A stretch of DNA of 64,000 nt from Gilvimarinus agarilyticus (GTDB lineage Bacteria; Pseudomonadota; Gammaproteobacteria; Pseudomonadales; Cellvibrionaceae). The notes beneath the pieces are model-generated. The model was not told the origin of the DNA, did no database searches, and saw only the letters and a list, made by a program, of their open reading frames with translations. Where the stretch lies: assembly GCF_000832015.1 (NCBI RefSeq), contig NZ_JXCJ01000001.1, positions 2,790,631-2,854,630 on the forward strand, in the 5' to 3' direction. A program made the position numbers and the translations under genes. Below are positions 53,354 to 55,922 of this stretch, piece after piece. Numbering within the stretch: the first letter of the stretch is position 1; each line of letters opens with the position of its first letter.

Positions 53354-53605
53354 TTAATCACGCGGCTTTTTGGCCGTCGCATCTACAGCTAAATCTGTCG
53401 CAGTCGTAGAGCTTACGCCGTTTTTAAGGCTTTCGCACTTTTGTTCGTCGCCACCGCACAGCTCACAACTGTAATCTTTTTCCCCCAGCGCTTTACCCAC
53501 ACCACCACAAGAGCCGGTCAAGGGCTTACGCCCGCAAATCACACCCACAGACATGCCAACCACTACGGTAAGCATTACCAATAAAACCACTAAAAATACT
53601 GCCAT
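53354..53605 (-). CDS. nqrM: NqrM, Na+-NQR maturation factor
   Basis: An 83 aa membrane protein needed to insert the intramembrane iron centre between NqrD and NqrE. It has an N-terminal membrane segment (VFLVVLLVMLTVVVGMSVGVI) and five cysteines, C24, C33, C47, C50 and C57, in CGRKPLTGSCGG and YSCELCGGDEQKC. The last part is an extended polar tail. It lies directly after apbE, the place it has in other nqr operons. Confidence 0.92.
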   Translation of the reverse strand: MAVFLVVLLVMLTVVVGMSVGVICGRKPLTGSCGGVGKALGEKDYSCELCGGDEQKCESLKNGVSSTTATDLAVDATAKKPRD

Positions 53606-53638: not shown

Positions 53639-54688
53639 CTACTGCAACAACTGTGAAAACGTAACCGATTGAGTGTCGGTAAAGCCGTCGCCTTCTTTGA
53701 CAATCATGTACACGGCGAGTTGCTCGGCGTTGGCCAGCGCCATACCCTTTTCCGGGCCCAGTACATTCAACGCCGTTGCCCAGGCATCGGCGCGGGCTGC
53801 GGTCTCAGCCACTACCGTCACCGACGCTAGGTTATGCCTAATTGGCCGACCGGTCGTGGGATCAATAGTATGCGAGTAACGCACACCGTCGACTTCAAAA
53901 TAGTTGCGGTAATCTCCCGAGGTCGCCACCGCATGATTATCGATATTGAGGGCGAGCCTGGCGCCTCCGGCCAGCACCGACGGTTGCTCGATGGCAATGC
54001 GCCAGGGCGTACTGCGCGGGCTATCACCAATCACTCGCACTTCACCCCCTATCTCGACCATAAAGTTGTGAAAGCCACGATTGACTAAAAAATCAACTAA
54101 CTGGTCGACACCATATCCCTTCGCAACGGCCGACAAATCGACACTTATATTGTTGGTGCGCCGAGCCCGGTTAACATCAAGCTGCAAAAATGTGTGGCCA
54201 GTACGCGCCAAAGCGGCCGCCAAAGCCTCATCATCCGGGACTTGCTCGGGCTGCATTTCGGGCCCAAATCCCCAAAGATTAACCAGCGGGCCTACCGTAA
54301 TATCAAACGCCCCGCGAGAGCGCTGACTGATGTCTTCACTGATGGTCAAGACTTCCATAACGGGCTCTGAGAGCTCTACCCACTCATTCACTGGGGCGCG
54401 ATTGAATTGCATCAGCTCGGAGTCATCAATGTAAGTCGACATCATCTGGTTAATCTCTACCAGTTGCTCTTCGACAGCCTCCTGCAAAGCCTCCACGTTA
54501 ATATCAAAGTCACCGGACTCCGGCCCCACCACGGTAATATGATAATGCGTGCCCATGGTGCCGCCCGAAAACTTTACGTTCGGACGCTCTGTACCACTGG
54601 GCGAGCAACCACTTATTAGCAGACACAAAAACAAAAAAGAGGCTGACAGAAATGTCAGCCTCTTTTTTATTATCATTATGTCAGGCAT
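53639..54688 (-). CDS. apbE: FAD:protein FMN transferase ApbE
   Basis: Attaches FMN by a phosphoester bond to threonine in NqrB and NqrC. 349 aa exported lipoprotein: RLTFLSASFLFLCLLISGC ends in the lipidated cysteine, then FSGGTMGTHYHITV, the active domain with SRGAFDITVGPLVNLWGFG, DLSAVAKGYGVDQL, SGDYRNYF and SHTIDPTTGRP. I chose the ATG at 54688 (MPDIMIIKKR), 13 bases past the nqrF stop; an ATG at 54676 is also possible. A terminator-like hairpin at 54633-54668 lies inside the signal-peptide codons. Ribosome-binding sequence is weak for both starts. Confidence 0.93.
   Translation of the reverse strand: MPDIMIIKKRLTFLSASFLFLCLLISGCSPSGTERPNVKFSGGTMGTHYHITVVGPESGDFDINVEALQEAVEEQLVEINQMMSTYIDDSELMQFNRAPVNEWVELSEPVMEVLTISEDISQRSRGAFDITVGPLVNLWGFGPEMQPEQVPDDEALAAALARTGHTFLQLDVNRARRTNNISVDLSAVAKGYGVDQLVDFLVNRGFHNFMVEIGGEVRVIGDSPRSTPWRIAIEQPSVLAGGARLALNIDNHAVATSGDYRNYFEVDGVRYSHTIDPTTGRPIRHNLASVTVVAETAARADAWATALNVLGPEKGMALANAEQLAVYMIVKEGDGFTDTQSVTFSQLLQ
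54633..54668 (-). terminator. terminator-like hairpin inside the apbE signal-peptide codons
   Basis: GAGGCTGACA (54639-54648) and TGTCAGCCTC (54653-54662) form a perfect 10-bp stem around a four-base loop, with six T on the minus strand right after it (and six on the plus strand too). It has every feature of a rho-independent terminator, sitting 40 bases after the nqrF stop and inside the translated start of apbE. Confidence 0.85.
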
Positions 54689-54701: not shown

Positions 54702-55922
54702 TTACCCACCAAAGTCATCCAGCATAATGTTTTCATCTTCAACGCCCAAATCATGTAGCAACTTAATAACCGCTGCGTTCATCATTGGCGGCCCACACAT
54801 GTAGAACTCACAATCCTCTGGAGCGGGGTGGTCTTTTAGGTACTCTTCATACAATACGTTATGAATAAACCCAGTCAAACCTTCCCAGTTATCTTCTGGC
54901 TGCGGGTCCGACATGGCAACGTGCCAAGTGAAGTTGTCGTTCTCCTCGGCAAGCATGTCGTATTCATCCTGGTAAAACAGCTCTTTTAGAGAACGCGCCC
55001 CGTACCAGAAAGAGATCTTACGCTTAGAGTTAAGACGCTTAAGCTGGTCAAAAATGTGCGAGCGCATTGGCGCCATACCGGCACCACCACCCACAAACAC
55101 CATCTCAGCCTCGGTATCTTTAGCAAAGAACTCACCAAAGGGGCCAAACACTGTGATTTTGTCACCCGGCTTTAAATTAAAGACATACGAGGACATGATG
55201 CCTGGCTGAATGTCTTTAGAGCCCGGAGGCGGTGTCGCAATACGGATATTAAACTTAACCAGACCACGCTCTTCCGGATAGTTCGCCATCGAGTAAGCGC
55301 GCTGCACAGGCTCGGCATTTTTGGTTTCTAAGTTAAAGAATCCAAAGCGCTCCCAGTCAGCACGGAACTGCTCTTCGATATCAAAATCAGAGAACTTAAT
55401 ATGATACGCGGGACACTCAAGCTGTACATAGCCGCCAGCGCGGAAATCTACGTTCTCCCCCTCGGGCAGCTTTAAGGTTAGCTCTTTAATAAAGGTTGCC
55501 ACATTGGGGTTCGACTCAACGGTACACTCCCACTGCTTAACACCAAATACGTCTTCCGGTACCTCTACGACCATATCCTGTTTAACCGGAGTTTGACAGG
55601 ATAAACGCCAGCCTTCTGCCGCTTGACGCTTGGTAAAATGGCTCTCTTCGGTCGGCAGCATAGAGCCACCGCCATCCGATACAACACAGGCACACTGCGC
55701 ACAAGTGCCGCCACCGCCACAGGCCGACGGCAAGAACAAGCCCGCTCCAGACAGCGTCTGCAACAGTTTGCCACCCGCAGGAACAGTGAGTTTTTTCTCG
55801 CCGTTGATATCGATGGTGACATCACCGCTCGATACCAACTTTGCACGCGCGCTCAAAATCACAACCACCAACACAAGCACGATGATCGTGAACATGGCTA
55901 CGCCAAGTATAATTTCGTTCAT
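54702..55922 (-). CDS. nqrF: Na+-NQR subunit F
   Basis: Entry point for electrons: oxidises NADH and passes electrons through FAD and a 2Fe-2S cluster. 406 aa: N-terminal membrane segment ([18 protein letters not shown]), ferredoxin-like domain with the cluster motif [12 protein letters not shown] and the fourth Cys in SCQTPV, FAD-binding [11 protein letters not shown], and NADH-binding [17 protein letters not shown] and [11 protein letters not shown]. The stop is followed 13 bases later by the apbE start. Confidence 0.97.

Follow-up and report, generated by a model that had tools for sequence, protein, structure and literature searches.

A putative intra-operon terminator within the signal-peptide codons of apbE in Gilvimarinus agarilyticus and related bacteria

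We analyzed a stretch of 64,000 nucleotides of the Gilvimarinus agarilyticus genome (hereafter, the window) in which nqrF, the last gene encoding a subunit of the sodium pump, is followed by apbE. On the minus strand, the codons of the ApbE lipoprotein signal peptide hold a hairpin (perfect stem of 10 bp, loop of 4 nt) followed by a U-tract. We consider it probable, on the basis of the sequence and its comparison across relatives, that this element is a partial intra-operon terminator lodged in the signal peptide of the next gene, which would keep the production of ApbE low.

Anatomy of the nqrF-apbE junction

An earlier note on this DNA had described a perfect 10-bp stem, a 4-base loop and a run of T after nqrF, and this is what we observe (Table 1). 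A spacer of 39 nt separates the nqrF stop codon from the core stem, of which 33 nt precede the A-tract. The U-tract UUUUUUGUUUUU adjoins the stem directly, and the stem reaches 16 bp when the A6/U6 flanks are counted. The hairpin has the stem of an intrinsic terminator (GC-rich, about 5-14 bp, short loop), and its d score makes it a strong terminator candidate. The hairpin region encodes KKRLTFLSASFLF within MIIKKRLTFLSASFLFLCLLISG, immediately before the lipobox Cys. In the fold of a 141-nt region, the hairpin dominates the structure (z-score of -5.4) and 0 of 200 shuffled sequences were as stable. A search of this region in Rfam gave no cis-regulatory family above the gathering score, and the sub-threshold matches were mostly over the hairpin. 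Nearly symmetric, the hairpin (54633-54668) has the form of a terminator on the plus strand as well, where we saw no gene ending at this place.

Table 1. Features of the nqrF-apbE-nqrM region (window coordinates).
Feature	Coordinates	Strand	Remarks
nqrF, last pump-subunit gene	54702..55922	-	TIGR01941 nqrF, E 1.8e-216; stop TAA 54704-54702
apbE, flavin transferase lipoprotein	53639..54688	-	PF02424, E 2.6e-93; frame open through hairpin; in-frame ATG candidates at 54688 and 54676
Signal-peptide codons MIIKKRLTFLSASFLFLCLLISG and lipobox Cys	54605..54676	-	translation; Cys codon 54607-54605
A-tract (A6)	54663..54668	-	pairs with U-tract; codes Lys-Lys
Core terminator hairpin (candidate), 10-bp stem, 4-nt loop	54639..54662	-	-16.8 kcal/mol; Carafa-type d score 48.6
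5' arm GAGGCTGACA	54662-54653	-	
Loop UUUC	54652-54649	-	
3' arm UGUCAGCCUC	54648-54639	-	
U-tract UUUUUUGUUUUU	54627..54638	-	codes part of the Phe/Leu hydrophobic core
nqrM, maturation factor gene	53354..53605	-	PF04400 NqrM, 28.5 bits (cut-off 22); 33 nt after apbE

The three genes nqrF, apbE and nqrM all lie on the minus strand with short gaps, co-directional and functionally linked, which is the setting of an intra-operon terminator, and nqrM probably shares the read-through transcript with apbE. A second gene for an ApbE-family protein is present elsewhere in the genome (L256, 393190-394032), with a frame for a 175-aa secreted-looking protein downstream; hence, the apbE studied here may not encode the only flavin transferase.

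How unusual such an element is can be judged from the window and 20 stretches of 20 kb of this genome (464 kb in total), which hold 41 strong terminators. Of these, 34 are intergenic, 4 are antisense, 1 falls within a gene, and the remaining 2 occur in the opening 150 nt of an open frame. The apbE hairpin is one of this pair, and the other resembles an ordinary terminator upstream of a gene whose start comes after it. The apbE hairpin is the only terminator convincingly located within the 5' codons of a gene in these 464 kb. When the signal peptide of the window was recoded with synonymous codons, 0 of 300 recodings reached the observed terminator score.

Conservation and recurrence in related genomes

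We gathered 201 distinct nqrF ends from related genomes, and apbE follows in 166 of them. A junction was strictly called embedded when a hairpin and T-tract lay at most 48 nt before the lipobox Cys and the apbE frame was open through the hairpin. This detector found 100 embedded terminators among the 166 junctions, 34 terminators located further upstream, and 32 junctions without a terminator, and a relaxed detector raised the embedded count to 110. With the relaxed detector, the family of G. agarilyticus has 73 embedded cases out of 83 junctions (9% expected from synonymous recoding), a named gammaproteobacterial set has 28 out of 58 (28 of the 56 testable, against 5% expected), and a sample of the class has 9 out of 25 (6% expected). 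Several family members initially scored as lacking the element have stems with a mismatch or a larger loop. A few embedded calls in GC-rich genomes (L128, L130, L215) are probably due to chance, as is to be expected from the control rate of 5-9%. Marinobacter and most Pseudomonas show no clear terminator at this junction, so low ApbE by an embedded terminator is not universal.

Synonymous recoding of the 100 strictly called cases gave p < 0.05 throughout, and in 79 of them not one of 300 recodings attained the observed score. The embedded hairpin is not a chance feature. It could in principle be an inverted repeat arising as a by-product of the amino-acid composition of the signal peptide, since its A and T tracts do come from Lys and Phe codons. 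However, the terminator is lost in about 91 to 95% of the synonymous recoding trials, and paired changes alter bases on both arms and, in places, the amino acids too. We rejected this explanation on these two grounds and regard its probability as negligible.

The stem, sought in the same codons of close relatives, is kept there through pair-preserving change. Its sequence varies among genera (CGAGGC/GCCTCG, CAGGGCC/GGCCCTG, GCGAGA/TCTCGC, GGCTAGCC/GGCTGGCC, and others). In 36 sequences, which were selected for carrying the hairpin and thus make a more biased test than prevalence and recoding, 90% of the cells pair, against 36-54% with slid partners, 12 of the 14 pairs are changed on both sides, and the covariation score reaches 0.665, whereas shuffles give 0.22 and slid controls no more than 0.19. 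The element is under selection beyond codon choice.

In all 110 embedded cases there is no Lys or Arg codon between the end of the stem and the lipobox Cys, which bears out the claim of the earlier note that apbE cannot sensibly start past the hairpin. The apbE frame, followed from 18 nt before the stem to the Cys, is without stop in 100 of 100 strict cases (partly by construction, the open frame being a condition of the call), whereas stops interrupt the other two frames in 83 and 39 cases. The lack of Lys and Arg after the stem, together with the open frame, places the start upstream and implies that the stem is truly translated. The opposite view, in which the overlap is an artefact of an open frame and apbE really starts past the terminator, could draw on the presence of some start codon after the stem in 69 of 100 cases (TTG and GTG included; only 6 have an ATG) and on five Microbulbifer-like genomes (L192, L193, L199, L200, L205) that carry a second signal-peptide-like stretch after this same stem. 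The remaining sequence is nevertheless too short for a normal signal peptide, and this, along with the missing charged residues and the open frame, led us to reject the downstream start, which we hold to be very improbable. In the Microbulbifer-like genomes themselves, the start of apbE may have moved downstream of the stem (here and below, "-like" genus names reflect a sequence match to named relatives and are unconfirmed). We also compared the strength of the apbE Shine-Dalgarno sequences, for which candidate starts are ambiguous, and saw no weaker initiation in embedded cases.

On a tree of NqrF, the embedded state occupies 19 of the 21 rows of the Cellvibrionales-type clade and appears separately in Idiomarinaceae and others. 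It requires 10 changes, of which at least 7 are forced by well-supported branches. The state clusters on the tree yet needs 7 to 10 changes, and is therefore recurrent.

Some lineages depart from this arrangement. In a Cellvibrio-like genus (L162, L170, L175, L176, L180, L181, L183), there is no apbE after nqrF and the order is nqrF-terminator-nqrM, with nqrM recognised by eye from its first residues. Since the terminator is kept where apbE is absent, its job would be to end nqr transcription and not to make a signal peptide. Two genomes of another genus (L021 and L167) have a new terminator directly after nqrF and a decayed hairpin in the signal-peptide codons, and a third genome of that genus (L059) has both elements. 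Such patterns are in keeping with selection for termination after nqrF, the overlap with apbE being present in some lineages and not in others.

Proposed partial termination and its alternatives

We propose that a partial Rho-independent terminator would end most nqrABCDEF transcripts just past nqrF. In this lineage apbE begins upstream of it, and the signal-peptide codons would themselves be the terminator, the A-tract and 5' arm coding for the positively charged n-region, and the 3' arm and U-tract for the hydrophobic core. RNA polymerase would have to read through the terminator for any ApbE to be made, and for NqrM to be made from the same transcript. Indeed, any apbE transcript that encodes the signal peptide crosses the terminator whatever its promoter, which would make both proteins dependent on read-through, with NqrM as an exception should its gene have a separate promoter. 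The maturation factors would end up well below the pump subunits: low ApbE and NqrM relative to the pump is a reasonable inference, and NqrM is probably made in small amounts, like ApbE. We likewise infer that termination takes place in vivo, that some fraction of polymerases reads through, and that the lower ApbE is a selected benefit. Terminated transcripts on which ribosomes began apbE would be non-stop mRNAs, a cost of the arrangement.

Alternatively, the overlap may be an accommodation to a compact genome. The terminator would be needed only for the 3' ends or the stability of nqr mRNA, the overlap would be tolerated as terminators with A- and U-tracts happen to read as signal peptides, and the level of ApbE would not be a selected trait. 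The persistence of the terminator where apbE is gone and the repeated switching of the embedded state on the tree favor this explanation, as does the tolerance of signal peptides to sequence change. Yet its consequence stays the same, in that apbE mRNA crosses the terminator, and most members of the family keep the upstream start although their relatives suggest that a downstream one is possible. We see the accommodation as a serious possibility, but one that we hold with less than even confidence.

The earlier note had further proposed that only transcripts on which a ribosome is translating the start of apbE would read through. In E. coli, termination is at full strength once the terminator lies more than about 27-30 nt past the upstream stop codon, and beyond 27 nt it was not repressed by a ribosome at that codon (PMC4824070). 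A terminator placed 30 bp downstream of an AUG stayed largely efficient, about 10% being lost to translation, and upstream expression fell by about half, which was attributed to non-stop mRNA (PMC4824070). Across embedded cases, the stem lies a median of 38 nt past the nqrF stop, at 27 nt or more in 74-77% of them, and the nearest ATG lies 2 to 77 nt from the stem (median of 31). Set against the E. coli data, these distances favor a plain partial terminator over a ribosome-gated switch, and the strict dependence on translation could not be upheld given the loose spacing from ATG to stem and the small effect of translation in E. coli.

In such a ribosome-gated attenuator, ribosomes translating the opening codons of apbE would block the hairpin, read-through would depend on initiation at apbE or on restart after nqrF, and ApbE output would respond to translation capacity or growth rate. 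Intrinsic terminators blocked by ribosomes are established in E. coli (PMC4824070), and some gating is possible in the window, where the two ATG lie 26 nt and, for the one at 54676, just 14 nt from the stem, close enough for an initiating ribosome to reach the 5' arm. Nonetheless, besides the variable spacing and the modest loss of efficiency described above, we noticed no conserved alternative fold, which makes such an attenuator rather unlikely in our view. Also rather unlikely is a broader proposal, in which terminators and bacterial signal peptides would share a sequence grammar (A-tract as Lys n-region, U-tract as Phe/Leu core) and would have been repeatedly fused at the nqrF-apbE junction into a translation-sensitive attenuator, coupling the supply of the flavin-insertion factor to the state of the ribosomes and of the pump operon. 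With a plain partial terminator, ribosomes entering apbE may still raise read-through modestly.

Relation to known systems and significance

Partial terminators within operons are known to set unequal expression, as in rpsU-dnaG and rplL-rpoB of E. coli. Partial terminators in archaeal operons are reported to play the same role (PMC10450193). As in these cases, the apbE element lies within an operon whose downstream genes would be needed in smaller amounts; unlike them, it sits inside the signal-peptide codons of the next gene and not between genes. Translation-controlled attenuators, of which ampC carries one, provide another comparison. The pyrBI leader is a further example (PMC4824070). The apbE hairpin could be blocked in a similar manner by a ribosome following RNA polymerase closely, but we saw no dedicated leader peptide or sensing codons, the frame being that of the functional lipoprotein gene itself. 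A further parallel is the experimental tR2 construct W48, whose terminator about 30 bp after the AUG is still efficient and would yield non-stop mRNA (PMC4824070). However, this terminator, which falls within the first 100 bp of the coding region, was engineered, while that of apbE is natural, conserved, and recurrent. A literature search, with most subscription journals outside its reach, returned no description of a terminator in the signal peptide of apbE.

Gene callers and terminator predictors that exclude coding sequence will miss elements of this type. ApbE attaches flavin to the sodium pump, and the arrangement suggests, in testable form, how an operon can keep the production of its own assembly factor low. 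It appears that one stretch of DNA has been selected as a terminator of transcription and, at the same time, as a signal for protein export, across the family and repeatedly elsewhere.
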